A DNA stretch of 64,000 nucleotides from the NCBI RefSeq assembly GCF_000519265.1, contig NZ_KI912608.1:757665-821664 (forward strand), read 5' to 3'. The stretch comes from Desulfonatronum lacustre DSM 10312 (GTDB lineage Bacteria > Desulfobacterota > Desulfovibrionia > Desulfovibrionales > Desulfonatronaceae). Of this stretch, positions 25,441 to 58,488 are shown one piece after another. How positions within the stretch are numbered: the first letter of the stretch is position 1; every line of letters begins with the position of its first letter. Below the pieces are notes generated by a model, which was given only the letters and a program-made list of their open reading frames with translations, was not told the origin of the DNA and did no database searches. A program made the position numbers and the translations under genes.

Positions 25441-25482
25441 GGTATTATTTACACCATTTTTTGATTAGTGGAGGATACTGAC

Positions 25483-31048: not shown

Positions 31049-31083
31049 GCACGGCAAAATCCATTATTCAAGGAGAATGCATC

Positions 31084-31530
31084 ATGAGCAAGGTTTTGAT
31101 CGTTTACGGCTCGACCACCGGGAATACCGAGCATGTGGCCGAGGTAATCGGGGAGGTGCTCCGGAAGTCAGGCAAGGAGGTCGTGGTCAAAAACGTTACG
31201 GATGCCAAAGTCGAGGAACTGGGAAGCGAGTACGACCTGACCTTGCTGGGCGTGTCCACCTGGGGGGACGAAGATGTCGAGTTTCAGGAGGATTTCGACT
31301 CCTTCTACCAGGACATGGACGACGCCGAACTGGAGGGCAGGAAGGTCGCCCTGTTCGGTTGCGGGGACTCCAGCTACGAGCATTTTTGCGGGGCCGTGGT
31401 GCTGTTGCGGCAAAAGGTGGAAGGCCTGTCCGCGGATCTGGTCAACGAGCCCCTGCTCATCGACGGTGATCCGTCCGTCATGCGATCCGAGATCGAAGAA
31501 TGGGCCGAGGAAGTTGGGAGGGCGGCGTGA
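31084..31530 (+). CDS. fld: Flavodoxin
   Basis: 148 residues, short-chain flavodoxin. FMN phosphate loop GSTTGNTE (residues ~9-16), STWGDEDVEFQEDF near the isoalloxazine ring and FGCGDSSYEHFCGAV are close to the Desulfovibrio vulgaris protein. It replaces ferredoxin as low-potential electron carrier when iron is scarce, which fits its place at the end of the iron cluster. AAGGAG lies 6 bases before the ATG at 31084. Confidence 0.95.
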   Translation: MSKVLIVYGSTTGNTEHVAEVIGEVLRKSGKEVVVKNVTDAKVEELGSEYDLTLLGVSTWGDEDVEFQEDFDSFYQDMDDAELEGRKVALFGCGDSSYEHFCGAVVLLRQKVEGLSADLVNEPLLIDGDPSVMRSEIEEWAEEVGRAA

Positions 31531-31539
31531 GAGGAGAGG

Positions 31540-31747
31540 GCTGAAGCCTGAGGGATGAGACCTGAGACTGGGTGGCGGATGTTCTTCGTTCGTTGTTCTT
31601 CGTTGGAGGATGACGCGCGGAGAAAGGGGGCTTTATGCCCCTATTTGCCTGAAAGCGAAAGGCGGGTCAGCACGGAGCAACGAGCGAACAGCAACGAACG
31701 AAGAACGAAGAACCACGAACGTCAAACAAAGAGCAGACGGAGAATAC
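31540..31747. repeat. Modular intergenic repeat R3 (heptamer family)
   Basis: Contains the GAGGGATGAGACCTGAGACT module (31550-31569), a left arm GTTCTTCGTTCGTTGTTCTT (31579-31605) and a right arm of AACGAACGAAGAACGAAGAA type (31692-31735). The right arm ends about 10 bases before the ATG of the next small gene. Confidence 0.78.
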
Positions 31748-41456: not shown

Positions 41457-41508
41457 TTTGAAAATAATTTTCAAATTTGTTGACGAATGGGGTGGTTGCG
41501 GATAGATG
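41457..41508 (+). promoter_or_regulatory. Fur-like palindrome and promoter of the GGDEF gene
   Basis: A perfect 19-base palindrome TTTGAAAATAATTTTCAAA (41457-41475) is followed by TTGACG (41480-41485), 17 bases, and TAGATG (41503-41508). The palindrome centre is 14 bases before the -35 box, exactly as in the second such promoter at 43916. The TGAAAATNATTTTCA pattern is that described for Fur sites in Desulfovibrio, whose predicted regulon includes GGDEF and HD-domain genes. Confidence 0.75.
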
Positions 41509-41579: not shown

Positions 41580-42569
41580 ATGGCGGAAATATCCATGATC
41601 GTTGACAAGCCCGGTGTCGCGACGCGGTTGTATGGCGCGCTGGTCCGTCCGGTGGTGGACTTTGTTTACGGGTGGAGCGTGACCATCAAGGTCCGGCTGC
41701 TGCTCGTCGCCCTGATCGTCCTGCCGTCTATCGGCGGGTTGATCTTGCTGGAGTCCCGCCCGGCGGATCTGCAAACCTACTTCATCTTCGCCCTGGTCGG
41801 GACACTGGCCTTTATCGGACCTCTTTCCAAGATCGTGGCCGACTATCTGGTCATGCGCGACCTGCGGGAGGTGGAGCGGTTTTGCCTGAAGCTGAAGGCC
41901 GGAAATTATCACGTCAAGTTTGATTTGCCGCCCCAGGTGGACGAGGAGCGGGACGTTCTGGTCCTCAAGCGCAACCTGAACTGGATGGCTCACGTGATTT
42001 CCCGCCGGGAGATGCAGTTGGAGGCGGAACTGGCCAAGACCCACAAGGAGCGGGTCCGGTTCGCGGACATGTCCTTGAGGGACCAGCTCACCGGGCTGTT
42101 CAACCGGCGGGGGATGGAGGAAAAGCTGAGTGAATTGGCCCACGAGGCCTGGACTACGGATCGTCCGCTGACCATGCTCTTCCTGGACGCGGACAAGTTC
42201 AAGGCGGTCAACGACACGTACGGCCACCAGGCCGGGGACGATCTGCTGCGCAACCTGGGCGCGATCATCCGGGCCAACGTCAGGGAGGGCATCGACGTTC
42301 CCTTCCGTTACGGCGGCGACGAATTTGGCGTCCTGCTGGTGGGTATCGAACTGGAACGGGCCGAGACCATCGCGGGGCGGGTCCTGCGCGCCTACAACGA
42401 GATTCGGATCGGTGAAACCAGCCTGAGCATCGGCGTCGCCATGATGGTCAAGACCAAAGACGGCCACCTTGACGACGCCGTGAGAATGCTGTCCCAGGCG
42501 GACCAAGCCGCCTATGAGGCCAAGCGCGGAGGAGGGAGTCGCGTGCATGTTCACAAGGAGAGCTCATAA
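41580..42569 (+). CDS. Membrane diguanylate cyclase (GGDEF)
   Basis: 329 residues: two membrane helices (LLLVALIVLPSIGGLILL, YFIFALVGTLAFIGPL), a short HAMP-like linker with coiled coil, then a GGDEF domain with the intact active loop RYGGDEF (G245-F249). It makes cyclic di-GMP from two GTP. The inhibitory RxxD site five residues upstream is not present in the expected form. It lies behind a Fur-like box and is followed by an HD-GYP protein, so one promoter may control both making and breaking of c-di-GMP. Confidence 0.9.
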   Translation: MAEISMIVDKPGVATRLYGALVRPVVDFVYGWSVTIKVRLLLVALIVLPSIGGLILLESRPADLQTYFIFALVGTLAFIGPLSKIVADYLVMRDLREVERFCLKLKAGNYHVKFDLPPQVDEERDVLVLKRNLNWMAHVISRREMQLEAELAKTHKERVRFADMSLRDQLTGLFNRRGMEEKLSELAHEAWTTDRPLTMLFLDADKFKAVNDTYGHQAGDDLLRNLGAIIRANVREGIDVPFRYGGDEFGVLLVGIELERAETIAGRVLRAYNEIRIGETSLSIGVAMMVKTKDGHLDDAVRMLSQADQAAYEAKRGGGSRVHVHKESS

Positions 42570-42570
42570 C

Positions 42571-43323
42571 ATGTTCATGGGATCGGAAGCGTTTCGTTTA
42601 CGAGTGGATTCGCTGGGATGTGGGGCGTCGGGCGAGGTTTTGGGCGAGGGGTTGAGCGAAGTTGGGTGCACTTCCGGGATCTGCGAGTCCTTGCACCAGA
42701 TCGCGGCTGCACTGGGAAACGCCATCGATGCCAAGGACCACTCCACCAGTTCCCACTCCCGGCAGGTGGCCGACCTGGCCCGTTGCCTGGCCCTGCGGGC
42801 TGGCATGTCCATCCATCAGGCCGAGGTGATCCACATCGCCGGCCATCTGCACGACATCGGCAAGATCGGCATCCCGGACGAAGTGCTGTGCAAACGCGAA
42901 CCGCTGACCGACGCGGAGTGGGCCATGATTCGCCAACACCCCGCCATCGGGGCCAGGATCGTCGCCCCTGTGCACATCATGAACGGGTCCACGGGCATCG
43001 CCAAAATGATCCTGCACCACCATGAGCGCTGGGATGGACGAGGCTACCCAAATCGGCTGCGCGGCGAAAACATCCCCCTGGGGGCGCGGATTCTGTGCCT
43101 CGCGGACAGCTTTTCCGCGATGATGGAATCCCGTGCCTACCGAAACCGACTGACCCTGGGCGGCTCCATCGAGGAACTCCGCCGCAACTCAGGAAGCCAG
43201 TTCGATCCGGAACTGTGCGGGCTGATGGTCGACATGCTGCGGGAAGCCGGAGTGGCGGACGAGTACTGTACGCTGGATCTGCTGGTCACCCGGATCATTG
43301 CCTCGGATCATCAGTTTCCGTAA
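42571..43323 (+). CDS. HD-GYP domain phosphodiesterase
   Basis: 250 residues. Complete HD-GYP signature: H94-D95 in GHLHDIGKIGIPDEV and HHHERWDGRGYPNRL with G158-Y159-P160. Such enzymes hydrolyse c-di-GMP. The N-terminal ~45 residues have no recognised domain. The ATG at 42571 follows AAGGAG and is 1 base after the GGDEF stop codon, so the opposing enzymes are translated together. Confidence 0.9.
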   Translation: MFMGSEAFRLRVDSLGCGASGEVLGEGLSEVGCTSGICESLHQIAAALGNAIDAKDHSTSSHSRQVADLARCLALRAGMSIHQAEVIHIAGHLHDIGKIGIPDEVLCKREPLTDAEWAMIRQHPAIGARIVAPVHIMNGSTGIAKMILHHHERWDGRGYPNRLRGENIPLGARILCLADSFSAMMESRAYRNRLTLGGSIEELRRNSGSQFDPELCGLMVDMLREAGVADEYCTLDLLVTRIIASDHQFP

Positions 43324-43667: not shown

Positions 43668-43912
43668 GTGGGCTGAGGGATGAGACCTGAGAACTGAGGG
43701 GGCGGTTGACGTTCTTGGTTTGTTGTTTTTCGTTCGTTGTTCTTGGTTCCTCGTCGAGGATTGGAGGGTGGGCGGAGGTTGAGGGGAAAGCTGAATCTCC
43801 ACGGAACCGCGGATCATTCCCCTCCTGGGAGGGGCCGGGGGTGGGTGACGGGTGGAAGGGGCTACCGATCCATGAACGAAGAACAAAGAACAACGAACAT
43901 TAAAAAATTCTG
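43668..43912. repeat. Modular intergenic repeat R4 (heptamer family)
   Basis: In order: GAGGGATGAGACCTGAGAAC module (43676-43695), left arm GTTTGTTGTTTTTCGTTCGT (43717-43751), GC palindrome CCCCTCCTGGGAGGGG (43820-43835), right arm GAACGAAGAACAAAGAACAA (43874-43898). It ends just before the Fur-like box at 43916. Confidence 0.8.
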
Positions 43913-43915
43913 GTC

Positions 43916-43966
43916 TTGAAAATAATTTTCAAAATTCTTGACAGGTTTTTCATTTCGGGCTAGAGG
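43916..43966 (+). promoter_or_regulatory. Fur-like palindrome and strong promoter, no gene behind it
   Basis: Palindrome TTGAAAATAATTTTCAA (43916-43932), then TTGACA (43938-43943), 17 bases, TAGAGG (43961-43966). The box, the 14-base step from its centre to the -35, and the spacer match the promoter at 41457. Transcription should begin near 43973. Confidence 0.75.
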
Positions 43967-43972
43967 TACACT

Positions 43973-44104
43973 CGAATTTGGTCACGGATCGTTCTACGGG
44001 CTTCGGACGCGCAAGCGGTCGCGGAGCAAGTGGGGGCGGGACGACGGCACATACGTAGGGGAAAGGAATTGTTTCCCTGTTATGCCGTGGTCCCGCTTTT
44101 TTTT
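43973..44104 (+). ncRNA. Candidate iron-regulated small RNA
   Basis: About 130 bases between a Fur-like promoter and a strong intrinsic terminator, with no supportable coding sequence. The shape (regulated promoter, short transcript, terminal hairpin plus T8) is that of iron-responsive regulatory RNAs such as RyhB or PrrF. No sequence similarity to those is seen, and base-pairing targets cannot be judged by eye. Open frames crossing it start inside the promoter and run through the terminator. Confidence 0.55.
44036..44104 (+). terminator. Strong intrinsic terminator
   Basis: A 14-bp stem with one mismatch (GCGGGACGACGGCA / TGCCGTGGTCCCGC) encloses an inner stem GGGAAA / TTTCCC and is followed by eight T (44097-44104). 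Confidence 0.88.
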
Positions 44105-44363
44105 GGTCCGTGAAGTTTTCAGCCGTGATTTCGTCTGGATCGGCAAGGGCGAGTGCCTTGTTCTGGTGTGGCAAAGAGTAACGTAAACAGGAAAACGATA
44201 ATCGGAATCCTTACCTTGTATGTATAAAGTGCAATCCGTTCGAATGATCTACTCTGGTCCATCCTCCGGCCCGGTCAGTCGGCCCGACTGTTCACATCAC
44301 GCGCCCAGCCAGAACCCGATTCAGGTTCGGGGCGACGGGCGGGAACCGAAACAGGAGACGGGC

Positions 44364-44573
44364 GTGACCAATGTATTGCGCGGAGTGCATACTCCGATCC
44401 TCGAAAAGATTCTCGAACTCTATACCGACCTCTATCTCCATGACGGCTTCGGGACCGTCACCGTGGAGATGCGCTTCCTCAGGCGGGGTCAGAAAGAAAT
44501 CATCGTCAGCAGCGGAAAGGAATACCGCTTTGTGGTGGATTGGCCGGAAGGCGCTCGCGAGGAGGGGAAGTGA
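44364..44573 (+). CDS. Conserved hypothetical small protein
   Basis: 69 residues: VTNVLRGVHTPILEKILELY, then DGFGTVTVEMRFLRRGQKEI and KEYRFVVDWPE. The regular amphipathic helix followed by beta-strands looks like a genuine folded protein; I recall similar proteins in Desulfovibrionales but cannot confirm it. GTG start at 44364 with AGGAGA 6 bases upstream. The longer frame from 44220 has no ribosome site. Confidence 0.6.
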   Translation: MTNVLRGVHTPILEKILELYTDLYLHDGFGTVTVEMRFLRRGQKEIIVSSGKEYRFVVDWPEGAREEGK

Positions 44574-44995
44574 TGCGCCCCTCCACGTCTCCCGCGAGCA
44601 GCCGTTCCCTACCTCCAAGCACGGCCTTCCACCCGGCGACCTTCCGTGACGACGATGACGGGCGGCAAGTGGTGCGTACCGTTGATTACCGGCAAATCTG
44701 TCATGCAGACTCCATCAACACTCCTTCCAAGTCGGTACGCGACACACGACCGGCGCTCCAACACTCCCGCACCGAAACAAAACAGCGATCCTCCAGGCGT
44801 TGTTTCACGGCAGCGGGAATGGACGGGGCGTCGGTCGTGCCGGTCGGTCTGTCCCCCCCAAGGGGGGGAGATGTTATTCCGTTCGTTGTTCTTCGTTCTT
44901 GGTTGTTGGTTTGCGGTAGTGCTTGGACATTGCCGGACTGCACTGCCAGCCTGGCAGTGGCGGATTTCCGGAGCAAGCCGTGCAACCGGCGGTAA
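44573..44995 (+). CDS. Doubtful open frame coupled to the upstream gene
   Basis: Starts TGATG-overlapped with the preceding gene and has a good GAGGAGG site, but the 140-residue product is Ser/Arg/Pro-rich, and its later part (PFVVLRSWLLV) is simply the translation of repeat R5. The first ~60 residues (DDDGRQVVRTVDYRQICHAD) could be a short real protein extended by the repeat. Confidence 0.25.
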   Translation: MRPSTSPASSRSLPPSTAFHPATFRDDDDGRQVVRTVDYRQICHADSINTPSKSVRDTRPALQHSRTETKQRSSRRCFTAAGMDGASVVPVGLSPPRGGDVIPFVVLRSWLLVCGSAWTLPDCTASLAVADFRSKPCNRR

Positions 44996-45048
44996 TCCAA
45001 CTGCTCGCGCAAGAAAACGAAGAACGAAGAACAACGAACGAAAAAACA
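44878..45048. repeat. Modular intergenic repeat R5 (heptamer family)
   Basis: Left arm CGTTCGTTGTTCTTCGTTCT (44880-44910) and right arm ACGAAGAACGAAGAACAACG (45016-45040). The sequence between them contains a shorter GCACTGCCAG / CTGGCAGTG hairpin (44941-44960). Confidence 0.75.
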
Positions 45049-45274: not shown

Positions 45275-46324
45275 ATGTTGAAACGGAAAATGAATCGGAA
45301 AAAAGGACAGCTAGGTTTCACCCTTTTGGAAATCCTGGTGGTCGTGGCCATCATGGGCTTCCTGGTCGCCATGGTCGCCCCGCGGTTTGCGGGCATCACC
45401 GACGGCACCGTTGACGTGGTTTGCGACACCAACCAGCAACGCATGATCGCGGCCCTGTCCGCGTATAACGAGCAAAAGGGTACCCTGCCCGGAGGCATGG
45501 TCAACCTTGTGGATGAAGAAGGTCCTCTGACCGATGGTATCGCTGCCGGTTACCTCAGGCCCACCCACACCGGTGAACTGGAATACCCGGACGAGGGACA
45601 GGCTACTTTTTTCGAGGAATTTTACGAGCGGAACCTGTTCCAGGTGCATATCCTGGACGAGGATGAAGTCAAGGAACTGCGCACTTTGGGTATCGGCTCG
45701 GTGTACAACCTGAACGCCTATAATTACGAAGGTCTCGACCCTGCTGCTGGGTACACAGAAGCTACTGATCAGCAAGACCCTCTGCGCCGCCAAGCCGTAA
45801 ATACAGGCATGGGCGTGCTAATGGTCGGTATGGGCGCTGAAGATGCCACTTCTTCTCTTGAAGGCCCCGCTGCTGTGGATGCCGCTGGCATTCTTGACAC
45901 TGACTACGACGAATGGGGTAACCCGGATTGGCTCGGCCGGATCATCCTGGGCGTGGGTCCGGATTCCAGCTTGATCAAGGAAGGCATGATCTCCGCAGCT
46001 GGTTTGTGCCCCGGCGGCATCAACAACGACCAAGTGTATTGGAACAATTACAACGTGCTTCTGCCGCGTCTGGAAGCCACCGTCGCTCGTTACGACGGTT
46101 CCATGATGACTTACCTGTTCGCCAAGGCCAGCGGTGGTTCCTATCGTGAGTTCGACTTGACCGAGGCCCAGGAAGGCTACATGTTCCTGACTCAATGCCC
46201 GGAAGGCCATCGTTTCGCCACTCCGGATGAGTTCTCTGAGTGGGCCATCTACGCTGCCGCTGATGATGCGGAAGCCACACGTACAACTGCGGAAACCGCA
46301 CTGGAAACCTTTTTTGAAGACTAG
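45275..46324 (+). CDS. Large type IV prepilin-like protein
   Basis: 349 residues. A short basic leader ends in G14, followed by the class III signal FTLLEILVVVAIMGFLVAMV with Glu at +5, so a prepilin peptidase should cut after Gly14. The remaining ~310 residues are far longer than ordinary pilins (~150) and acidic, with no family recognised. ACGGAG precedes the ATG at 45275. It heads the pilus/secretion cluster and is followed by a terminator, so it may be made in excess as the main pilin. Confidence 0.85.
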   Translation: MLKRKMNRKKGQLGFTLLEILVVVAIMGFLVAMVAPRFAGITDGTVDVVCDTNQQRMIAALSAYNEQKGTLPGGMVNLVDEEGPLTDGIAAGYLRPTHTGELEYPDEGQATFFEEFYERNLFQVHILDEDEVKELRTLGIGSVYNLNAYNYEGLDPAAGYTEATDQQDPLRRQAVNTGMGVLMVGMGAEDATSSLEGPAAVDAAGILDTDYDEWGNPDWLGRIILGVGPDSSLIKEGMISAAGLCPGGINNDQVYWNNYNVLLPRLEATVARYDGSMMTYLFAKASGGSYREFDLTEAQEGYMFLTQCPEGHRFATPDEFSEWAIYAAADDAEATRTTAETALETFFED

Positions 46325-46516: not shown

Positions 46517-46967
46517 GTTGTTTCGTTCTTGGTTCGTCGTTGGAAAGCCAACCTACCCCTGGCCCCTCCAGGGAGGGGATAAAGGGATGGTTGAGGGATT
46601 ACAGATGCACATCATCCAGGGGAGGCAACCCGGAGTCCATATCCGGAAAAATCTCATTGATGGCGGACAACGTGGCAAGCGTACCCAGCAACCCTTTTGT
46701 CCTGACCGGCTCGATGATCAGCCGATCACCCTCACGGCGGATGATGGCCGAGTCGGCATCCAGTTCAAACTCCTTGGGAATGCGAATGGCTTGGCAGCAG
46801 CCACTGCGAAAAATACGAACATGACGCGCCATATTCATGCAGATCCCTCCTTTCGTCGTCAGCATGTATTCTGCCTAGATCGGCCGGGAGATGTGCGTCA
46901 AGAACGAAGAACGACGAACGAAGAATAGCGGCGTAGCCGCAAAACGAAGAACGACGAACAAATTTAC
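46517..46967. repeat. Modular intergenic repeat R6 enclosing an antitoxin gene
   Basis: Left arm GTTTCGTTCTTGGTTCGTCG (46520-46541), GC palindrome CCCCTGGCCCCTCCAGGG (46557-46574), then the antitoxin gene, then the right arm AAGAACGAAGAACGACGAAC (46901-46920), GCGGCGTAGCCGC (46930-46942) and a further right-arm segment that ends 6 bases before the next gene's ATG. Confidence 0.75.
46599..46838 (-). CDS. AbrB/MazE-type (VapB-like) antitoxin, orphan
   Basis: 79 residues with the swapped-hairpin AbrB DNA-binding fold: ARHVRIFRSGCCQAIRIPKE and IIRREGDRLIIEPV. It resembles VagC/VapB antitoxins. The start at 46838 follows GGAGGG. No toxin frame follows downstream within the repeat, so it is an orphan or a remnant of a module inserted between the two prepilin genes, antisense to the cluster. 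Confidence 0.8.
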   Translation of the reverse strand: MNMARHVRIFRSGCCQAIRIPKEFELDADSAIIRREGDRLIIEPVRTKGLLGTLATLSAINEIFPDMDSGLPPLDDVHL

Positions 46968-48746
46968 ATGAAAAACAAAGGCTTTACCCTCCTGGAAGTG
47001 CTTGTCGTGATCGGGATCATGGGCTTGATGGCAGCCATGATCTGGCCCATGCGGGGGACTTTGGACGATTCGCAGCGGGAACGGGTAACCATCGAGAAAA
47101 TGGACGCCATCGTCGAGGCCATCCTCGGGCACGAGCAGATCAAGGACCACTATGACCTCAGCCGGACCATCGGCGGGTATGTGGGGGATATTGGGAAGTG
47201 GCCGGAGTTGTATGAGCCGGGGGGGGGCGGCGGTCTGGACGGGGAGCGTGGAGAGTTTGTCGGAGGGCGATTCCAGTGGGAGCGGCCGTTCAAAAATCTA
47301 AAAATTGATGGCGACACGAAAAAAGAAAGCCTGGGTCAGCCACGGGGGCTGTGGGCGAAGGACGAGGTTGCTGCCGAAGACAGAAGCAAGTGGAAAGGCC
47401 CCTACCTGACCCCGCCGGTAACCCGCAACCCGGCCCTGGGCAAACATTACGCCAAGAATCAGGCGGAATATGAGGGCTTGGACCCAACTGACCGTGAATA
47501 TTTCCACCTCCTGCAAGGCAGTGAGCAGCTTACGGACGGCTGGAACCGGGCGTTCCGGTTTTTTATCATCGGCGAAACAGGCGAAACATTCTGTATCGTC
47601 TCCCTGGGGCCGCGCGGGTTTGGGTACGAAGATGATTATGAACAGGACTGCGACCCGGATTCCCCGGAAAACCAGGGCAAGATCGTCAGGGCGTTGCATA
47701 AGAGCGAATGGGGTGCGGTACTGGCGGCGCGAGCGTTACGTAGCACTTCGACCCATCAATTGATCTTCATCACCCAGGACCACATGGACCGCATGGTCCG
47801 CGCCCTGATCGGCGAATCTCCCTCCGGCCCGAATACCGGATACACCGGCGATCTTCTGGACTGGCCGGAGTTGTTCAACTGGGTGTGCCGTGATGACGGG
47901 GGAAATATGGTCGATTGCGAAGATGAGATTGCCGTTAGTGGGACCGGGAAATGGGAATATGAATGTGAGGATCAGTCTTTCTCTGATAAAATAGCGTTCA
48001 AATATGGGCAACCACGCGGACTTTGGGAACGTGGCGAGCTGGCCACCAGCTGGCTCGGCGTGGGTTGGCGGCACGCCTATCTTGAAGCGCCGGACGGGAC
48101 TAATGAGAGCGAAGAACTCAAGGACGCCTGGGACAACGCTTATCATTTTTTCAGAGTTGTGGAGCAAATCAACGGCAACAATTTGGAACAGTTCATGATT
48201 CTTTCCGGCGGGGAGTCGGGGGCTTTTCATTTTCCCCCGGCGGATGAATCGGGAGAGCCCTATGTCGACCCGGATTATCTTAAAGCTGGAGGCCCTGCTG
48301 TCTTATCGAAAAGAGTCCGTTTTTATATGAATCACTACAATCCCGATCATCCTTCAAATCAGGACAATATCGTACGCATCGTCCGGCGCAACGAATGGTT
48401 GCCGGGCTTTATGGATGTGACGCTGGCCATCGCGGGAGGCGACTGCAATGAGGTCAAATGCGGAATATACGGTGTTTTGCCTGATCAATCCGACCTTGTT
48501 TCCCATGAGGTGATCGATGATCTGTGCGTGTTCAAGGCTAAGTATGACGACAACGGTGGCGATAAGCAGATCGTCACCGGTGGCAGATATTGGGTTTGCT
48601 GGGAAGGCGGAGGTGATGAGCCTAGTCCGGGCGATAACGCATGGTGGAAGATTTTCAGCACCTATGGCCATCCGGCAAAGAATGTGAACGTTAGTCTGAA
48701 CGCTTCAGACTTTCAGCCTTTGCCCGACCCCGAAGAAGACGAATAA
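46968..48746 (+). CDS. Giant type IV prepilin-like protein with internal duplication
   Basis: 592 residues. Leader MKNKG is cut before FTLLEVLVVIGIMGLMAAMI (Glu at +5). The passenger shows two related halves: GGYVGDIGKWPELYEP with GQPRGLWAKDEV and QLTDGWNRAFRFF in the first, TGYTGDLLDWPELFNW with GQPRGLWERGEL and ELKDAWDNAYHFF in the second. A nine-G tract (47219-47227) encodes a glycine run near residue 86 and could slip. The ATG directly follows repeat R6, without a Shine-Dalgarno sequence. It may be a tip adhesin or minor pilin. Confidence 0.82.
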   Translation: MKNKGFTLLEVLVVIGIMGLMAAMIWPMRGTLDDSQRERVTIEKMDAIVEAILGHEQIKDHYDLSRTIGGYVGDIGKWPELYEPGGGGGLDGERGEFVGGRFQWERPFKNLKIDGDTKKESLGQPRGLWAKDEVAAEDRSKWKGPYLTPPVTRNPALGKHYAKNQAEYEGLDPTDREYFHLLQGSEQLTDGWNRAFRFFIIGETGETFCIVSLGPRGFGYEDDYEQDCDPDSPENQGKIVRALHKSEWGAVLAARALRSTSTHQLIFITQDHMDRMVRALIGESPSGPNTGYTGDLLDWPELFNWVCRDDGGNMVDCEDEIAVSGTGKWEYECEDQSFSDKIAFKYGQPRGLWERGELATSWLGVGWRHAYLEAPDGTNESEELKDAWDNAYHFFRVVEQINGNNLEQFMILSGGESGAFHFPPADESGEPYVDPDYLKAGGPAVLSKRVRFYMNHYNPDHPSNQDNIVRIVRRNEWLPGFMDVTLAIAGGDCNEVKCGIYGVLPDQSDLVSHEVIDDLCVFKAKYDDNGGDKQIVTGGRYWVCWEGGGDEPSPGDNAWWKIFSTYGHPAKNVNVSLNASDFQPLPDPEEDE

Positions 48747-48789
48747 ACTGATTTCCTCTGCCAACCTCCGAAACGACAAACGTCCCTCA

Positions 48790-50373
48790 ATGCCCCGCAT
48801 TTCCCTCCCCAAAATCGGCCGTCCGAATTTCTCCAAACTTCTGTCCCGCCTGCCCATGCTCGGCGCGTTGTGCCTGGGCGTGGAGTATGTGGAGGATGAG
48901 GTTCGGGCGGCTTTGGTTCGGGCCAAAGGGCGGGAGCGGGAGATCATGGAGTTCGTGGCGGTCAAGGCGCCGGAAGCCGGGGATGATCTGCCGGGCATCG
49001 CTCAGCTTCAGGAAGTCCGCAAGCGCCTGAACTGCAAGCAGAACATCCAAACCGTGTTCGTCACACCCCTGGCTCGCCTGGTGGTCCTGCCCATGAACCG
49101 GGAGCGGGTTTTGAGCATGCGCAGCCACTTGCTGACCGAAGCCGTAAAGTGGGAGGCCGAGACGTATACCGGCGTTCCAGGAAATCAGTCCCTGGCCGGG
49201 GTGGAGGTGGAGAAAACTCGTGTGGAGCCGGGGCAGATCCAGGAAGAGCTTGAAGAGATCATGGTTCATGTGGCCGTGCTGGAACAGAACGTTTATCGGG
49301 CGGCCAAGGAGCGTTTCCGTCTGGCCGGGCTGAAGCTGTCCCGGGTCTATCCCGGCGAGGTCTGCTTTCATGTGCCCTTGTTGTATCAGCACGAAGAATC
49401 GGACCGTGGCGTGCTGGAGATCGGCACGGCTTCTTCGGGGTTTGCTCTGCTCAGGGGCGGCTCGACCCTGGCCATCAACGCCATGAACGTCACGGCGGAG
49501 ATGATCCGGGCGCATCTGGACGGTCGGGCTTTGCCGGACCTGGAAGACAGCTTGCGCTTCAACTTCGGCCAAGCGCCGGGGCCGCTGCCCGTGGCCCTGA
49601 CCGGGGTCGGGGCAATGGATCATCGGATTGTGGCCTTTCTACGTACTCTGGCCCCTACTGGAGTCGAGCCGGTGCTTTTGCAACGCACCTCCGGCCTGAC
49701 CACGGCGGGCTCCGAGGAAGGCCCGATGTTCGCCACGGCCGCGGGCGCGGCCATGCGTGAGCTGGGCGGCAAGGGCATGCAGACCATCGGCATTTCCGAC
49801 GCCGTGCCCGCGGCGGTGCGCATCCGGCAGAGCATTTACCTGATGCCCTTGGCCGCGGCCTCGTTTCTGTTCGTGGTCCTGTTGGGTCACAATCTGTTGA
49901 TGCGCTATCAGGAGAAAGATCTGCTGGAACAGCGCCGGGGCATTGAGACCCAGCTTTCCGAGCGCAAGAAAGAACATGACGAGGCCAACCGTCTGCAAGG
50001 CGACATTCAGAAGGTTGACGAGCGGATCAGAGAGTTACGGGAACAGTTGAAGTACATAAGGGATGACTGGGACACACCCTTGCAAGCCAGGATTGACATG
50101 TACGACGCCTTGATTCGGAATCTTCCGGAAACAGTGGCTCTGATCGGCATTCGTCATGATCAACGCGAGTCTGGCAGGTACGTTGTCAGCGGTGAAGCCG
50201 TGTCGCCCTCGGCGATACTCGAATTCGCCCTGCGGTTGCGGGAAGAAGCGGGGATGTCCGTGGACGTGCAACGTCTGGAGCCGCAACAACAGACACGCGG
50301 CAAGGGCTCCGCGTCCCATCGATTCGTGATGCATCTGGAGGCGGGAAGTGGCCAGAAAGCTGACCAAACTTGA
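48790..50373 (+). CDS. PilM-PilN fusion protein
   Basis: 527 residues. The first ~340 resemble the actin-like PilM/GspL cytoplasmic domain (GALCLGVEYVEDEVRAALVR, VLEIGTASSGFALLRGGS); then a membrane helix (IYLMPLAAASFLFVVLLGHN), a coiled coil (ERKKEHDEANRLQGDIQKVD) and a PilN-like ferredoxin fold. It is the inner-membrane assembly platform of the pilus or secretion machine. In most species PilM and PilN are separate. It overlaps the PilO-like gene by 26 bases. Confidence 0.78.
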   Translation: MPRISLPKIGRPNFSKLLSRLPMLGALCLGVEYVEDEVRAALVRAKGREREIMEFVAVKAPEAGDDLPGIAQLQEVRKRLNCKQNIQTVFVTPLARLVVLPMNRERVLSMRSHLLTEAVKWEAETYTGVPGNQSLAGVEVEKTRVEPGQIQEELEEIMVHVAVLEQNVYRAAKERFRLAGLKLSRVYPGEVCFHVPLLYQHEESDRGVLEIGTASSGFALLRGGSTLAINAMNVTAEMIRAHLDGRALPDLEDSLRFNFGQAPGPLPVALTGVGAMDHRIVAFLRTLAPTGVEPVLLQRTSGLTTAGSEEGPMFATAAGAAMRELGGKGMQTIGISDAVPAAVRIRQSIYLMPLAAASFLFVVLLGHNLLMRYQEKDLLEQRRGIETQLSERKKEHDEANRLQGDIQKVDERIRELREQLKYIRDDWDTPLQARIDMYDALIRNLPETVALIGIRHDQRESGRYVVSGEAVSPSAILEFALRLREEAGMSVDVQRLEPQQQTRGKGSASHRFVMHLEAGSGQKADQT

Positions 50374-50893
50374 AAAATTCGGCCTGATCGCCGCAGTGAT
50401 CACTGGCATGCTCTTTTTCTACCTCAAGCATGTCTACGACCCTCAGCAACAGGCCCTGGTCCGGGCGAGGGAGCAGTTAAACCGGAGCATCACCCAGTTC
50501 AACGAAATGCAGGCCGCGGAACCGCCGTTTCAACTGCGGCGACGCTTGGAAACCCAACGGGAGGCCCTGGCGGAACTGGAGCAGGAATTGACAGTGCTGG
50601 ACATCCGTGTCGGTGACGAGGAAGCCCTGATCCGCGCACAGCACTGGGCGTATCAAGAGATGGAGCGCCGTAATCTGCGCGTGCTGAACGTGGTCCCTCG
50701 CGGCGTTGAAAAGAAGCATCTCGAATGGCGGATATTCAGGATCACGGCTGAAGGCGATTTCAGAAGTCTCGTGGGTATGCTCCGAGAACTTCGCACCTAC
50801 AACACTCCGATGCTCGTGGAGCAGGTCAGCGTTTCCAGGGATGACAAACCCTGGTTGTTGAAGATGGTTATGGACTTGTGGATCGTGAGATAG
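50348..50893 (+). CDS. PilO-like inner-membrane protein
   Basis: 181 residues: N-terminal membrane helix (FGLIAAVITGMLFFYLKHVY), long coiled coil (QQALVRAREQLNRSITQFNE and ALAELEQELTVLD), then a ferredoxin-like domain (WRIFRITAEGDFRSLVGMLR). This is the PilO/GspM plan. GTG start at 50348 within the end of the PilM-PilN gene, after GGAGGCGGGAAG. Confidence 0.75.
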   Translation: MARKLTKLEKFGLIAAVITGMLFFYLKHVYDPQQQALVRAREQLNRSITQFNEMQAAEPPFQLRRRLETQREALAELEQELTVLDIRVGDEEALIRAQHWAYQEMERRNLRVLNVVPRGVEKKHLEWRIFRITAEGDFRSLVGMLRELRTYNTPMLVEQVSVSRDDKPWLLKMVMDLWIVR

Positions 50894-50982
50894 CCGTACG
50901 CTGTAAAGATCTCATTTTTCGCTGTATCGCGGTTTGGATTCGGTGAGTGGATTATTTATTTAGGATAACAGGAATCAAATTC

Positions 50983-51363
50983 ATGTTTGTTTTGAAGCGT
51001 TCCATATTAAAAATCGGGCTGGTCGGCATGTTCGTCTTTTGCGTGATGTACTGCTGGATTGCTCCGGCATCGGCACGGGAGCCGTTTTTCAGCCCCATTC
51101 CGCCCTTGGAAGCCTACGACTTTCCCAAAGCCGCGGATGAAATCAAGCTGCGCGGCCTGCTGCTCACCGAGGACTCCTTTCGGGCCGTGGTCTATTTGCG
51201 GACTTCTCGGGTCTACCGGGTGCTCCGGCCCCTGGACCGGCTGGAGGTGATGGTGGACGGCCTGCGGCACGAGTTCCGGGTGGAGGGCATGGGCGAGCGT
51301 CGCTTGGTGCTGCGCGGAGAGGATGATTACTGGTACGAGATCGGGGTGGAAGAGCGTGAGTAG
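50983..51363 (+). CDS. PilP/GspC-like periplasmic protein
   Basis: 126 residues with an N-terminal membrane anchor or signal (IGLVGMFVFCVMYCWIAPAS) and a small beta domain (LRGLLLTEDSFRAVVYLRTS, YRVLRPLDRLEVMVDGLRHE) like the homology region of PilP/GspC that docks to the secretin. Its stop codon overlaps the GTG start of the secretin gene. Confidence 0.7.
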   Translation: MFVLKRSILKIGLVGMFVFCVMYCWIAPASAREPFFSPIPPLEAYDFPKAADEIKLRGLLLTEDSFRAVVYLRTSRVYRVLRPLDRLEVMVDGLRHEFRVEGMGERRLVLRGEDDYWYEIGVEERE

Positions 51364-53221
51364 GACATCCGGCCACGAATCGCGGAGCGTTGCCCTGGAA
51401 GACCTGCTTACGGCCCCTTTGCTTCCGGCGGCTTGGGGAGTGGGGGGGCTGGTTCTGATCTGCCTGCTTTTGGCAATTCTCACGGGCTGCAAGACCGTAC
51501 AGCCCGCGGCCCAGCTTCAGTACACGCCGCCAGCTCCGGTATTGCAGCGCGACACCCAGCCCATCGTGCGCATTCCCCAGAAAGATCCGGACATGCGGTT
51601 GATTAGTTCGCATCGCCCCACGTCCCAGGACCGGGCCATGCGTTCGGGTTTTCGGCATCCTGACAGCGATACGAAGATCAAGGAGGTTTTCTTCCAGGAT
51701 GTTCCTCTGCATATCGCGGCGGAACTCTTCAATGAGGTGGGCGGCGTCAACCTCATGCTTCAGGGAGAGGTGACTGAAAAGAAAGTCCGTCTGTTTTTGC
51801 GCGACGTGACCTTGGGTTCGGCCGTGGAGGCCTTGTTGCGAGGCAACGAACTGTGGTTCCGCACGGACGGCCGGGTGACCGCAGTGATGACCGAGCAAGC
51901 CTTTGCCGACACCATGGTCTTTCACCAATCCGAGAAGATCCAGGCATTTTTCATGCGCTACACCAATGCCCAGGACATGGCCGCCCTTTTGGCCACGCTG
52001 CTCGGCCCGGAGGTGGAATTCCGGGACATGAGCGGGCAGTCGGTCTACGGGCATTTGGAGGCCCATAGCGTGGGCAGCAGCGCGGATGAGCCGGGTAAGC
52101 TCGATGACCTTACGGCGGAAGAGCGACGCAGGCTTGTGCAGTTGGGCGAGGCCGAGACCACCCAGCACATGGAAGAGGCCAGCAGTGCCCTGGGCCGTCG
52201 GTTGCCGGCCATCGTCACGGTGTTCAAGAAGAACAATTCCATTGTGGTTCGATCCATGGACGAGGGGCTGTTGCGGCACATCACCGGCATGATCCGGGAA
52301 CTGGATACCCCGGTCCGTCAGGTGTTGCTGGAGGTACGGATCGTAAGGCTGGAGCTGGGAGACGGCTTTCAGTCGTTCTTCGATTTTTCCTATGGAGATT
52401 TCGGGAATACCAGTGACCGGAACATCAGTCGGGATGGGTTCTATCAAACCGATTTCACCACCCTGGGAGGCGTGGGACAATTGGCGACGGATACCTTGTC
52501 CTATGTTTTCTCAACGGATCTGCTCAATGCGCGCATGCAGCTTTTCGCCCAGGAAAACCGGTTGAACACCATAGCTTCCCCGTTTCTGATGACCGCGGAC
52601 AACGCCGAGGTCCGTTTCTTCGTGGGCAAGCAGGTCCCGTTGCGCACGGGAGTGACTAAGGAGACCATCCGGGCCAGCGACCTGCAGGACCTAGTCATCT
52701 TCATGCCCCAGATCAGCAACCGGGAACTGGGCACGGACCTGGAGATCAAGAGCTTCATCAATGCGGATCGGACCATCACAATGGAGATCGTGGCTCTCAT
52801 CGAGTCCGCGAATTTGAACGTCTCCAGCATCACCTTGATCAACGACGCGACGGGGACACCGATCACCTTTCCCCTGGACGGCGTGGACAAGAGCGAACTG
52901 CAATCCATCCTCTCCGTACCCACGGGCAACACCGTGGCCCTGGGCGGATTCATCGACATCGAGGACCAAGACTACGAACAAAAAGTCCCGCTTCTGGGGG
53001 ACGTCCCTGTCCTGGGCTACCTGTTCAAAAAGGTGGAACGCAGAGCATCGCGCACGGAAACCGTCATCCTGATCACCCCGCACGTCATGGGCGCACCTGA
53101 CGAAGCCCCGGACACGACCCGCCGTTTTCTGGAAAGAAGCAGCCGGGTTTTGGACGAGGCGGAAGAGGCGAAAGAGCGCGTGATTCCGGAGGGTATGTTG
53201 TTTAAGCCGGTGGAAGAGTGA
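51356..53221 (+). CDS. Secretin (PilQ/GspD-like), probable lipoprotein
   Basis: 621 residues from GTG 51356, overlapping the previous stop by 8 bases. A hydrophobic segment ends in a lipobox-like LLAILTGC about 45 residues in, an unusually long leader. STN/N0 and N1 domains (residues ~100-310, DTKIKEVFFQDVPLHIAAEL) precede the secretin core (VRQVLLEVRIVRLELGD, QENRLNTIASPFLMTADNAE, PLLGDVPVLGYLFKK, TETVILITPHVM). It forms the outer-membrane ring through which the pilus or substrate passes. Confidence 0.88.
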   Translation: MSRTSGHESRSVALEDLLTAPLLPAAWGVGGLVLICLLLAILTGCKTVQPAAQLQYTPPAPVLQRDTQPIVRIPQKDPDMRLISSHRPTSQDRAMRSGFRHPDSDTKIKEVFFQDVPLHIAAELFNEVGGVNLMLQGEVTEKKVRLFLRDVTLGSAVEALLRGNELWFRTDGRVTAVMTEQAFADTMVFHQSEKIQAFFMRYTNAQDMAALLATLLGPEVEFRDMSGQSVYGHLEAHSVGSSADEPGKLDDLTAEERRRLVQLGEAETTQHMEEASSALGRRLPAIVTVFKKNNSIVVRSMDEGLLRHITGMIRELDTPVRQVLLEVRIVRLELGDGFQSFFDFSYGDFGNTSDRNISRDGFYQTDFTTLGGVGQLATDTLSYVFSTDLLNARMQLFAQENRLNTIASPFLMTADNAEVRFFVGKQVPLRTGVTKETIRASDLQDLVIFMPQISNRELGTDLEIKSFINADRTITMEIVALIESANLNVSSITLINDATGTPITFPLDGVDKSELQSILSVPTGNTVALGGFIDIEDQDYEQKVPLLGDVPVLGYLFKKVERRASRTETVILITPHVMGAPDEAPDTTRRFLERSSRVLDEAEEAKERVIPEGMLFKPVEE

Positions 53222-53232
53222 AGGGGGAAGGA

Positions 53233-53440
53233 AGAGATGTTGTTTTGTTCTTTGTTCTTGGTTCTTCGTTTGCGGAAGATGTTGTTTTGTTCGTCGTTCG
53301 TTGTTCTTCGTTAAAATGCCAACCACCCCTGGCCCCTCCAGGGGAGGGGAATGGTCGGCGGTTTCGAGGATATTCAGCTTGACGCTCCAACCTCCGAAAT
53401 CTCGTGGAAACCAAGAACGAAGAACGACGAACCGACAACA
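53233..53440. repeat. Modular intergenic repeat R7 (heptamer family)
   Basis: Two left-arm runs (GTTGTTTTGTTCTTTGTTCT at 53236; GTTTTGTTCGTCGTTCGTTG at 53284), GC palindrome CCCCTGGCCCCTCCAGGGG (53327-53345), then right arm AACCAAGAACGAAGAACGAC (53408-53427). It separates the secretin gene from the antisense antitoxin gene. Confidence 0.8.
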
Positions 53441-53441
53441 A

Positions 53442-53726
53442 TCACATCACCGAGGACGATATCCTGTCATTGGCATACTTGTGGATCAGGGAACTGATCA
53501 ATGTTTGGTACGGGATGCCTTCCCGGATGGCCTTGGCCTTGATTTTTTGGATGTCGGATTCCAGGAGGCGGATGCTGATGGCTTTTTTTTTGTTGATCGT
53601 CCTGTCGACCAGGTCTGAAAAAGCCCGCATCTCCGCGGCCATGTCCGGGGGCTGTTGATAGTTGTTCCGGTGGATCGATTCGATCATCTCCTGCTCTTCC
53701 TGGTCCAGGTAGGGGATGGTGTTCAT
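53442..53726 (-). CDS. CopG/BrnA-type ribbon-helix-helix antitoxin
   Basis: 94 residues; the C-terminal ribbon-helix-helix ISIRLLESDIQKIKAKAIRE with GIPYQTLISSLIHKYAN is typical of CopG-family antitoxins paired with BrnT-like toxins. ATG overlaps the toxin stop by 4 bases (ATGA), so the pair is coupled, toxin first. Lies antisense within the pilus cluster. Confidence 0.88.
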   Translation of the reverse strand: MNTIPYLDQEEQEMIESIHRNNYQQPPDMAAEMRAFSDLVDRTINKKKAISIRLLESDIQKIKAKAIREGIPYQTLISSLIHKYANDRISSSVM

Positions 53727-54016
53727 GATTGGGGCTCCTTTTTGAGAAGATGAGCGTATTTCTTATGATATTTTCTGTCGGGATAGATTGTTTTCAAAAA
53801 AACGCTGGATTCGCTTTCCACGAATGGAACAATATGGACATACCCATTGAGATCGACCACCAAAATTTTTTGATGGGGGTACCTGTCCCGGCGAGGATGG
53901 ACTTCGATGGCCAGAAGTCTGTTTTCCTGGACTGCCAGCAGGACATCCTCGAAACAAATCCCGCGTTGCTCAAGGAATCGCGAATTCTTGTCCTCGCTCC
54001 AGAGTAGGTTTTTCAA
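53723..54016 (-). CDS. BrnT-like type II toxin
   Basis: 97 residues with a BrnT/RelE-like small RNase outline: LLWSEDKNSRFLEQRGICFE, then HQKILVVDLNGYVHIVPFVE and FLKTIYPDRKYHKKY. It probably cleaves RNA and is neutralised by the CopG-type protein. The start appears to be TTG at 54016 with AAGGAG about 10 bases upstream. Substrate unproven. Confidence 0.8.
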   Translation of the reverse strand: MKNLLWSEDKNSRFLEQRGICFEDVLLAVQENRLLAIEVHPRRDRYPHQKILVVDLNGYVHIVPFVESESSVFLKTIYPDRKYHKKYAHLLKKEPQS

Positions 54017-54075
54017 AGTTCAAATCTCCTTGGAGAATGTAATGAATATACAGAGTGAATACAAGAGACGACAGG

Positions 54076-54262
54076 CGTTGTTTTGTTCCTTGTTCATCGT
54101 TCTTCGTTGAAATGCCAATCACCCCTGGCCCCTCCCAGGAGGGGGCAGGCTCAGCGCTGGATCGGGAGGGGGAGACTTTGGCTCGGTTTCCGACGACGAA
54201 CAAAGAACGACGAACATAATAACATTTTCCGACAACGAACAACGAACAGATAAACGAACACA
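54076..54262. repeat. Modular intergenic repeat R8 (heptamer family)
   Basis: Left arm GTTGTTTTGTTCCTTGTTCA (54078-54108), GC palindrome CCCCTGGCCCCTCCCAGGAG (54123-54142), right arm GACGAACAAAGAACGACGAA and ACAACGAACAACGAACA (54193-54249). It ends at the start of the PilT-like gene. R7 and R8 bracket the toxin-antitoxin pair. Confidence 0.8.
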
Positions 54263-54267
54263 AACCC

Positions 54268-55446
54268 ATGACCACCATCACTCAACAAATCGTAAAAGAG
54301 CACAAGCCCGAGAGCATGGAGGAACTGTTGGCCAAGACCGTGGAGTTGGATGCTTCGGATTTGCATCTGACCTATGGCGAGCCGCCGGTGTTCCGGATTG
54401 GCGGGGATCTGCGGCCCATGAGTTGCGAGGCGTATGCGCATGAGGAGATTCGGGGTTTGCTTGATCAGGTCATGCCGCCGCGCTACGCGACGGTGCTGGA
54501 GGAGAAGCGCTCTGTGGACTTTGCCGTGAGCAGCTCCTCGGTGGGACGGTTTCGGTTCGCGGCCTATTATCAACGCGGGGCCTTGTCTCTGGCCATCCGC
54601 CTTCTGGCCAAGGGCATCCCGGATTTTCAGAGCCTGGGCCTGCCGCAGAGCATGGCCCGGCTGCCCACGTTCCGGGACGGGCTGGTGCTGGTCACCGGCG
54701 TGACCGGCTCGGGCAAGTCCACCACCCTGGCGGCGATCATCGACGCCATCAACCGGGCGGAGCGCAAGAACATCATCACGGTGGAGGACCCCATCGAGTA
54801 CGTGCACCAGAACTGCAACTGCATCATCAATCAGCGGGAGCTGCACACGGACGTGCACTCCTTTCCCGACGCGCTGCGCGACTCCCTGCGCGCGGACCCG
54901 GACGTGATCCTGGTGGGCGAAATCCGGGACCTGGACACCATGCGCACCGCGATCATGGCCGCGGAAACCGGGCACCTGGTTTTTTCCACCCTGCACTCCA
55001 AGGATGCCATGTCCAGCGTGAACCGCATGGTGGGTTCGTTCCCGGCCGGGGAACAGACCCAGATCCGGCAGCAGCTTTCCTCCACCCTGCGGGCCGTGGT
55101 CTCCCAGCGGCTTTTGCTTCGGGCGGACAAGTGCGGACGGGTTCCGGCGGTGGAATTGATGTTCGCCACCACGGGCATTTCGAACCTGATCCGGCTGGCC
55201 AAGGACGACATGATCTACTCGGCCATCGAAACCGGCCAGTGCGACGGCATGCAGACCATGGAGCAATCCCTCGTCGGCCTGATGGAGACCGGATTGATCT
55301 CCAGCGAGACGGCCCTGCTTTCGGCCAAGAACCAGGAAATGATGCGCAATCGCCTGACTTTGCGCGGCCTTCTGAATACCGGGACGTGTACGTCCAGGAG
55401 CCGGGTTCGTCCGGTGCCTTCAAGTGTCGGAAATGGAGCCAGATAG
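54268..55446 (+). CDS. pilT: PilT-like pilus retraction ATPase
   Basis: 392 residues. Walker A TGVTGSGKSTTLAAI with K150, Asp box TVEDPIEYVH, Walker B DALRDSLRADPDVILVGEIR and His box TGHLVFSTLH are complete. The N-terminal PAS-like domain includes ASDLHLTYGEPPVFRIGGDL, typical of PilT/PilU. It lacks the C4 zinc motif of PilB. It powers pilus disassembly. The ATG follows repeat R8 with no Shine-Dalgarno sequence. The C-terminal ~35 residues are atypical. Confidence 0.9.
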   Translation: MTTITQQIVKEHKPESMEELLAKTVELDASDLHLTYGEPPVFRIGGDLRPMSCEAYAHEEIRGLLDQVMPPRYATVLEEKRSVDFAVSSSSVGRFRFAAYYQRGALSLAIRLLAKGIPDFQSLGLPQSMARLPTFRDGLVLVTGVTGSGKSTTLAAIIDAINRAERKNIITVEDPIEYVHQNCNCIINQRELHTDVHSFPDALRDSLRADPDVILVGEIRDLDTMRTAIMAAETGHLVFSTLHSKDAMSSVNRMVGSFPAGEQTQIRQQLSSTLRAVVSQRLLLRADKCGRVPAVELMFATTGISNLIRLAKDDMIYSAIETGQCDGMQTMEQSLVGLMETGLISSETALLSAKNQEMMRNRLTLRGLLNTGTCTSRSRVRPVPSSVGNGAR

Positions 55447-55449
55447 ACC

Positions 55450-57120
55450 ATGATGACTCGCGGCGACCGCTTCGGCGGCTACCTGGTCCAGCAGGGCCTG
55501 ATCACCGGGGAGAACCTGGAGCATGTTCTGTCCGTACAGCGGGTGGTCCAGGAAAAGATCGGTCAGTTGCTGGTCCGGGAAGGATTGCTCTCCGAGGATC
55601 AGGTGATGCGGGCCTTGTCCGAGTTCACCAAGATTCCCCTGTACATCGGAAACGGGACGCCCTCGGATCCTCGTGTGGTGCGCCTGATTCCCGAAAAAAT
55701 GGCTCGCCGGGCCGGGGTGATGCCCTTGATGCGCAACGAGGCCAATGAACTCTTGCTGGCCTGCAACGGACCGGTGCCCCGGGCCATGCTCCAGAATATT
55801 TCCCGCCTGGTCCGTGCCCCGGTGCGTCTGGTTCTGGTCACGGAGCGGCAACTGCGCAAGCTCCAGCAGATGGCCTACGCCCGGGAATTCGACACCACGA
55901 TCGACTTCCGGACTCAGGCGGTGAACGGTGAAGATCTGAACGTGGTGGTGGAGCTGCTGGAGAAGCTGATGGTCCGGGCCATTTCCCAGAACAACGTGTC
56001 GGACATTCACTTTGAACCGGAAATGGACGGCTTTCTGGTCCGCTTTCGCGAGGACGGGATGCTGCGCCGGGTGGAGTCCCTGCCCGCGGCCATGGGCCAA
56101 AAGCTGATCTCCCGGATCAAGGTTCTGGCCAACCTGGATATAGCTGAGCGCCGTGCGCCTCAGGACGGCTCCTTCGCCTTCCAGCCCACGCGGCTGAAGG
56201 TTGAGGTGGAGGCCGTGAACCTGCGCGTGTCCATCCTGCCGGTGAACTACGGCGAAAAAGCCGTACTCCGGCTGCTGCCGCCCCACGACGAGGAAGTCCG
56301 GCTGGACTCCCTGGGCATGGATGAGAAGAGTCTGACCAGATTCAAGTCCATCCTGCGCTCCCCGCATGGTCTGATCCTGGTCACCGGCCCCACGGGATCG
56401 GGGAAGTCCACGACCCTGTACGGGGCCCTGCAACTGCTGCGCTCGGATACGACGAACATCACCTCCCTGGAAGATCCGGTGGAACTGACCCTGCGCGGGG
56501 TGAACCAGACCCAGGTGGACGGCGGCGTGCGGCTGGACTTCGCCTCCGGGCTGCGGTCCATCCTGCGCCAGGACCCGGACATCATCATGGTCGGCGAGAT
56601 CCGGGACACGGACACCCTACGGGTCTCCCTGCGGGCCTCCATCACCGGCCACCTGGTGCTCTCCACCCTGCACACCAACGACGCGCCCAGCTCCTTTTCC
56701 CGGCTCCTGGACATGGGCGGGGAGTCCTTCCTGGTGGCCGTCTCGGCCCGGGCCATCCTGGCCCAGCGCCTGGTGCGCCTGGTCTGCGCCCACTGCAAGC
56801 AACCCCGGCCCGTGAACCGGGCCGAACTGGACATGCTGGGCCTGCGGGACACGCCCGAGGGCGCGTTCATGATCCACCGTTCGCTCAATGGCTGCGAGCT
56901 GTGCAACCACAAGGGCTACAGCGGCCGGGTCGGCCTGTTCGAACTGCTGGTGGTGGACGAGGAACTGCGCGAACGCATCATGCACGGCGCCACAACCCAC
57001 GAAATCGCCCGCACGGCCAAAGCCGCCGGCAACTACCGCTCCCTGCTGGAAGACGGCGTGGACAAGGTCAAAATGGGTTTGACTACGCCGGAGGAGATTA
57101 TGCGGGTGACGATGGAATAG
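55450..57120 (+). CDS. pilB: PilB/GspE-type assembly ATPase
   Basis: 556 residues: N-terminal MshEN-like domain (FGGYLVQQGLITGENLEHVL), linker, then the ATPase core with Walker A GPTGSGKSTTLYGAL (K319), SLEDPVELTLRGVNQTQV, Walker B ILRQDPDIIMVGEIRD and a C4 zinc site (CAHCKQP ... CELCNHKG). It energises pilus or pseudopilus assembly. It starts 3 bases after the PilT-like gene. Confidence 0.93.
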   Translation: MMTRGDRFGGYLVQQGLITGENLEHVLSVQRVVQEKIGQLLVREGLLSEDQVMRALSEFTKIPLYIGNGTPSDPRVVRLIPEKMARRAGVMPLMRNEANELLLACNGPVPRAMLQNISRLVRAPVRLVLVTERQLRKLQQMAYAREFDTTIDFRTQAVNGEDLNVVVELLEKLMVRAISQNNVSDIHFEPEMDGFLVRFREDGMLRRVESLPAAMGQKLISRIKVLANLDIAERRAPQDGSFAFQPTRLKVEVEAVNLRVSILPVNYGEKAVLRLLPPHDEEVRLDSLGMDEKSLTRFKSILRSPHGLILVTGPTGSGKSTTLYGALQLLRSDTTNITSLEDPVELTLRGVNQTQVDGGVRLDFASGLRSILRQDPDIIMVGEIRDTDTLRVSLRASITGHLVLSTLHTNDAPSSFSRLLDMGGESFLVAVSARAILAQRLVRLVCAHCKQPRPVNRAELDMLGLRDTPEGAFMIHRSLNGCELCNHKGYSGRVGLFELLVVDEELRERIMHGATTHEIARTAKAAGNYRSLLEDGVDKVKMGLTTPEEIMRVTME

Positions 57121-57271
57121 ATGTTGTTTCGTTCGTCGTTCTTTGTTCTTTGTTGGAGTAGCGAGCTTTCTTTTTGCTGTCGTGCGCTGATTTGAATCAA
57201 GAACGAAGAACAAAGAACGAAGAACAGCGGCGTAGCCGCCAACGAAGAACGACGAACAAAGAACGAGAAAA
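57120..57271. repeat. Modular intergenic repeat R9 (heptamer family)
   Basis: Left arm GTTGTTTCGTTCGTCGTTCT (57122-57141 and on to 57156), right arm AAGAACGAAGAACAAAGAAC (57199-57218 and on), centre GCGGCGTAGCCGC (57227-57239), then ACGAAGAACGACGAACAAAG. It spans the whole gap between the PilB and PilC genes; the last arm ends 5 bases before the ATG. Confidence 0.85.
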
Positions 57272-57275
57272 CATC

Positions 57276-58481: not shown

Positions 58482-58488
58482 GGAGGAG

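Follow-up and report, generated by a model that had tools for sequence, protein, structure and literature searches.

The block at positions 43916-44104 of the analysed DNA (a stretch of 64,000 nucleotides from Desulfonatronum lacustre DSM 10312, hereafter the window) quite probably constitutes the 5' leader of a Fur-repressed transcript, in which a switch between a structured RNA core and an intrinsic terminator would lead either to a stop after ~130 nt or to readthrough. Given the covarying core, the terminator and the position upstream of iron genes, we interpret it as a leader that acts in cis, of the attenuator or riboswitch-like type. The family to which the RNA belongs looks like a new class of leader/attenuator RNA that is not in Rfam 15, an RNA switch for iron supply. 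In the initial annotation the block had been described as a candidate Fur-controlled small regulatory RNA with the layout of iron-stress RNAs; the structured non-coding RNA, the Fur-type box, the promoter, the terminator, the conservation and the link to iron are supported, whereas an independent, RyhB-like action in trans is not.

The 17-bp palindrome TTGAAAATAATTTTCAA that had been noted upstream of the promoter is indeed present at 43916-43932 (plus strand, like the promoter, core and terminator elements below). It fits exactly the dFUR-box WTGAAAATNATTTTCAW, which the passages of PMC545781 on this box derive from the upstream regions of feoAB and fur of delta-proteobacteria, and the location of such a box upstream of a promoter would, at the level of sequence, mark a putative member of the dFUR regulon. 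A second perfect copy of TTGAAAATAATTTTCAA lies at 41458-41474 on the plus strand, upstream of a GGDEF gene with an identical layout (box, 5 nt, TTGACG-17-TAGATG), which bears out the claim that promoter, box and box-to-promoter spacing are repeated at the two sites. Perfect matches to the 15-bp core of the box are limited to two sites in the 3.76-Mb genome, both inside the window. Allowing up to three mismatches, the window contained three matches versus 0.16 expected, and with up to two mismatches the whole genome yielded 29 sites for the real pattern and 2 per strand in all for a reversed control. The -35 element TTGACA (43938-43943) and a weak -10 element TAGAGG (43961-43966) are separated by a 17-nt spacer; both the -35 element and the spacing are kept in G005 and G003, two relatives that carry the block, where the -10 counterparts at this spacing read TAGAGG and TAAAAG, respectively. 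The promoter had earlier been qualified as good; its TAGAGG has 3 of 6 consensus bases and was not listed by a consensus promoter scan. Boxes of the dFUR type (TTGAAAATTAATATCAA and TTGAAAATTAACATCAA) occur at the equivalent place in G008 and G025; beyond the genus of the window and a single neighbouring family, none adjoined the RNA. Of 66 family members, 38 have TTGAC[AT] at a distance of 30-160 nt on the 5' side of the RNA.

The RNA of positions 43970-44106 folds at -61.3 kcal/mol (z = -4.9) and contains a conserved structured core (43977-44049) that is recovered by covariance models R2 and R3, the latter with 82.8 bits and an E-value of 2.5e-17 per genome. The core is made up of a stem P1, a GG/AA internal loop and a hairpin P2. 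More explicitly, the 5' strand of P1 (GUUCUAC, 43991-43997) is followed by an invariant GG and the 5' strand of P2 (GCUUCG, 44000-44005), and the 3' strand of P2 (CGGAGC, 44022-44027) by an invariant AA and the 3' strand of P1 (GUG-G-GGGC, 44030-44037), which overlaps the base of the terminator. The drawing of P1 that fits best, GNYYUAC with GUG-R-RRGC, has seven pairs and one bulged purine, and in this form 97.8% of the cells pair over 39 members; a version without the bulge was rejected, as it fits just 73% of the cells versus 98%. Over 67 aligned sequences, P2 showed 93% pairing versus 75% with shuffled partners (maximum 79%), and 86 double-change cells versus 20 after shuffling (maximum 39); covariation was also counted on the 39-member version and on MAFFT-based alignments. 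The most conserved parts of the RNA are either paired or part of the internal loop, and do not form an exposed single-stranded seed.

Upstream of P1 there is a conserved, unpaired GG, 8-9 nt 5' of UACGG (its bases are present in 59 and 54 of 66 members; 43987-43988 in the window copy), which has no role in the drawn structure. In many feoA-type copies this region reads AGGGAUG, resembling a ribosome site plus start codon, and an AUG lies 4-6 nt 5' of UACGG. A leader peptide starting AUG-UCU-UAC was considered; the AUG is absent in the window copy, G021, L085, L089 and L091, and the peptide is therefore not a conserved ORF.

The terminator that had been called very strong is real: its arms (44036-44049 and 44083-44096) pair at 13 of 14 stem positions in an ungapped check and are followed by T8 at 44097-44104. 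In G003 the stem carries one compensatory change from C-G to A-U. That nothing codes in the stretch of around 130 nt was likewise confirmed, by an insertion of 11 bases in G003 that breaks any frame. In at least 61 of 66 members the core is followed without a gap by an intrinsic terminator (hairpin plus T-run), and the GGCG at the base of the hairpin doubles as the 3' end of P1. Considering that the terminator reuses this strand, full P1 and full terminator cannot coexist. Forced folds showed the same: outer P1 and the full terminator are mutually exclusive, and P2 and inner P1 survive in both states. The terminated state was 0.6-10 kcal/mol better in most members, a comparison that is uninformative for a few of them, the window copy included, where an internal T-run was wrongly picked. 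In an unconstrained fold, the window copy combined the full terminator with a shortened P1. Since outer P1 excludes the full terminator, closure of P1 should weaken termination, a prediction that follows from sequence and fold energies.

The block was found in 2 of 60 relatives (93% in G005, 68% in G003), and in 2 of the 7 same-genus genomes. The promoter spacer of G003 has largely diverged, but G003 retains the terminator, the core, TTGACA with its 17-nt spacing and, with one mismatch, the Fur box. A covariance model built from the window, G005 and G003 sequences retrieved copies in another family, namely in G008 and G021 (two at first), with TTGACA upstream; with a second model, a copy in G025 and one more in G021, its third, were found. 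The conservation that had been proposed as a check is supported, and relatives of the RNA are present in other families and classes. In G021 all three copies belong to a single iron locus, which also contains feoB and encodes a FeoA-domain protein and a P-type ATPase; one of the copies (L028) has no gene close downstream. A search pattern based on the invariant parts was applied to the order, the phylum and another three classes. For the class of G549, 18 of 85 genomes contained 25 matches in all (reversed control pattern: 0), and for the class of G703, 42 of 331 genomes contained around 66 (reversed control: 6). After removal of the matches that failed P2 (L086, L087, L090, L107 and L109), around 66 distinct members with flanks were obtained from several classes of the phylum; L138, in which only 2 of 6 P2 pairs form, does not enter the final counts. 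The homologs found with model and pattern reside mostly in multi-gene iron loci.

Several other matches were discarded. A weak match at 25315-25383 of the window is an interspersed repeat and not a second copy, and a model match in G205 (E 6.7e-4) looks like a chance terminator, given that the core sequence is absent. A pattern scan of genome contigs produced two chance matches, both in MAGs (Verrucomicrobia and Nitrospirae); since the 5' motif used was too restrictive to capture the feoA type, the scan is no measure of distribution.

At about 18 distinct loci feoB lies within ~1.4 kb downstream of the RNA, in most cases with feoA in between. The downstream feoA was confirmed by Pfam and starts around 20-30 nt past the terminator in the feoA-type copies. 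Other downstream products confirmed by Pfam were a TonB receptor, TonB_C, DUF3450, ECF sigma plus FecR, an OprB porin and FmdE; the remaining non-feo assignments were made by sequence or motif. TonB-dependent receptors follow the RNA at L105 (Pfam), L126 and L153 (both by sequence), a TonB protein at L097, DUF3450 at L112 (Pfam) and L095, L146 and L149 (by sequence), an ECF sigma-FecR pair at L118, and FmdE at L092. Porins are found at L083, L084, L100, L113, L134, L137, L140 and L143, and at L133 an HD-GYP gene is followed by feoB. At L034 and L036 the downstream gene encodes a periplasmic protein, a homolog of which adjoins feoB in the window. This small periplasmic-type protein (AHTPLFSCFDNADGTIYCEGGFSDGSSA; 25468-25803 in the window) lacks a Pfam family and recurrently adjoins feoB or the RNA, as at L034 and L036 (3' of the RNA), L083, L095, L106 and L113, and it is probably an unrecognised component of iron uptake. 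In four genomes (L130, L131, L132 and L141) a family of ~420-aa proteins (FFSCPIAGICLSVSEQKQLLKKSG) is encoded directly 3' of the RNA.

The window copy is followed on the same strand by a conserved ORF of 69 aa (44364-44573), homologs of which adjoin the RNA in G005, G003, G008 and L124/L125, and by a pseudopilin operon, so that the block is not isolated. The 69-aa ORF is likely the first gene under control in cis. The next gene on the strand encodes a pseudopilin (N_methyl; 45275-46324), and the rest of this type II secretion/type IV pilus-like cluster (46968-57120) comprises a further pseudopilin, a secretin and two T2SSE ATPases, all by Pfam. The small ORF is present in only 5 of 61 relatives, in four of which it adjoins the RNA, and within the genus RNA and small ORF are present or absent together. 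In G843 and G846, two distant genomes that belong to another class, the order RNA-terminator-small ORF-pseudopilin recurs, and the ribosome-binding site and ATG of the small ORF are located ~20 nt past the terminator, the start-codon distance of L124/L125. A pseudopilin homolog lies 3' of the RNA at G008, L093, L124, L125, L127, L128, L144 and L145, with the RNA between small ORF and pseudopilin at L144 and L145. In the window, 260 nt separate the terminator from the start of the first ORF, and a conserved stretch in between (44206-44245) could be a separate promoter. The simplest reading of these sequences is that the window copy would be the leader of the small ORF-pseudopilin cluster, with a spacer that has grown to 260 nt and a Fur-controlled promoter.

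Upstream of the block, on the plus strand, the GGDEF gene (41580-42569) overlaps an HD-GYP-type gene (42514-43323; both by Pfam). The pair corresponds to the gene types of gdp (GGDEF) and hdd (HD domain), which the iron passages of PMC545781 list as predicted Fur-regulon members in Desulfovibrio. The window also encodes feoB (22572-25109) and a flavodoxin (31078-31530). The HD-GYP gene is followed, ahead of the RNA block, by a BrnA-type antitoxin gene (Pfam PF14384; 43359-43667). In many intergenic stretches, furthermore, units of the GAAC(G/C)AAGAACAACGAAC type form irregular runs, which may lie on either strand (43742-43888, 44891-45029, 46535-46902, 53264-54237, 57201-58637, 25328-25338 and 31591-31703), which also occur in other genomes of the genus and in L021 around 8160-8300.

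We propose that at low iron Fur would open the window promoter, after which the RNA itself would decide between a stop after ~130 nt and continuation through the 69-aa ORF to the pseudopilin cluster: readthrough is expected when P1 is closed, termination when it is open. In favour of a leader we count the reversed-pattern controls, the covariation, the terminator in 61 of 66 members, the downstream iron genes and the recurrence of small ORF and pseudopilin. Against it we count the 260-nt gap in the window versus ~20-30 nt for feoA, the possible separate promoter at 44206-44245, the lack of a close downstream gene at L028, and the limitation of dFUR-type boxes to the window's genus and one neighbouring family.

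The main competing explanation, a Fur-controlled trans-acting sRNA like RyhB or PrrF, with the leaders of iron genes as its relatives or with a terminated leader that also acts in trans, we consider improbable. The window copy does resemble such RNAs (RyhB, PrrF, NrrF, FsrA) in its own Fur box at the promoter, a short non-coding unit of ~130 nt that ends in a strong intrinsic terminator, and the link to iron. The 260 nt to the next ORF, the three copies in one G021 locus (these sRNAs, too, sometimes have several copies) and L028 also fit. The relatives, however, directly precede feoA and the small ORF, and so lie in cis 5' of iron genes, which is at odds with a free-standing sRNA gene, and it is structure that is conserved and not an exposed seed. 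The Northern blot suggested in the initial annotation could not separate the two, since a terminated leader gives a ~130-nt band as well. The idea of an AT-rich palindrome that by chance lies beside the ordinary terminator of an upstream gene may appeal because terminator-like hairpins are common, but it is refuted by the homolog set, given the conservation, covariation, promoter spacing and gene association, and its probability is practically nil.

Within the preferred leader reading, the core may be switched by a ligand or by a protein. That it represents a phylum-wide, candidate new riboswitch class, directly sensing Fe(II) or an iron-status molecule and gating feoAB, TonB-dependent uptake, porins and the pseudopilin secretion operon, stacked under Fur control in the window's lineage, is a tentative proposal that we hold with reserve. 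Somewhat more doubtful still is an attenuator in which a regulator binds the core and so switches termination. Possibly this would be a ~100-aa protein, the gene of which lies just 5' of the RNA at many loci (L078, L079, L080, L084, L085, L096, L098, L100, L110, L111, L135 and others), with a homolog in the feo neighbourhood of the window (27892-28230). Its C-terminal end (...AFKSKRLEALRKRL; helix EESRKAFKSKRLEALRKRL) is highly conserved and basic, and the protein is a candidate RNA-binding partner. On the other hand, the gene is not nearby at several loci (L081, L091, L105, L126 and others), the protein has no recognised RNA-binding domain, and the co-location could reflect shared iron regulation only.

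As for known systems, neither the window nor 17 member loci gave a gathering-score match in Rfam 15, and no match was credible at relaxed thresholds, so that known RNA families with a covariance model there, the NiCo riboswitch included, were rejected. Neither a feo element nor an iron-linked motif is described in the open papers that report RNA discovery (in 26 and 50 genomes) or deal with orphan riboswitches; feo goes unmentioned in a 2024 ncRNA survey of Oleidesulfovibrio alaskensis, and none of the titles and abstracts listed on the subject describes a feoA riboswitch element. The family shares with terminator-type riboswitches a compact, conserved and covarying aptamer-like core in the 5' leader of related genes, and a P1 whose nucleotides are shared with a terminator that excludes it; it differs in that it matches no Rfam 15 family in sequence or structure and in that a ligand role is only putative. 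The NiCo (czcD) riboswitch, which according to a citation in a review (PMC12593503) responds to Fe(II) (Xu and Cotruvo 2020), is likewise a cis-acting metal-linked RNA, whereas the present family has just one P1-P2 hairpin, interrupted by a 2x2 internal loop, and adjoins import genes (feoAB, TonB receptors). With the dFUR regulon of PMC545781 the window has the box and an overlapping gene set (feoAB, gdp, hdd, fld, porins) in common, but the term 'small RNA' has no occurrence in that paper and its iron passages give no RNA element at feoAB.

The RNA described here is a leader 5' of feoAB in many relatives among the sulfate reducers, and it is compact (core of ~75 nt), easily synthesised and directly testable. 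To our knowledge, the control of ferrous iron uptake beyond Fur is poorly understood in anaerobes, and dedicated iron-sensing RNAs are few and debated. The family links a little-studied pseudopilin secretion cluster to iron supply and, if our reading is true, the window's lineage would exert a two-step iron control on one promoter.
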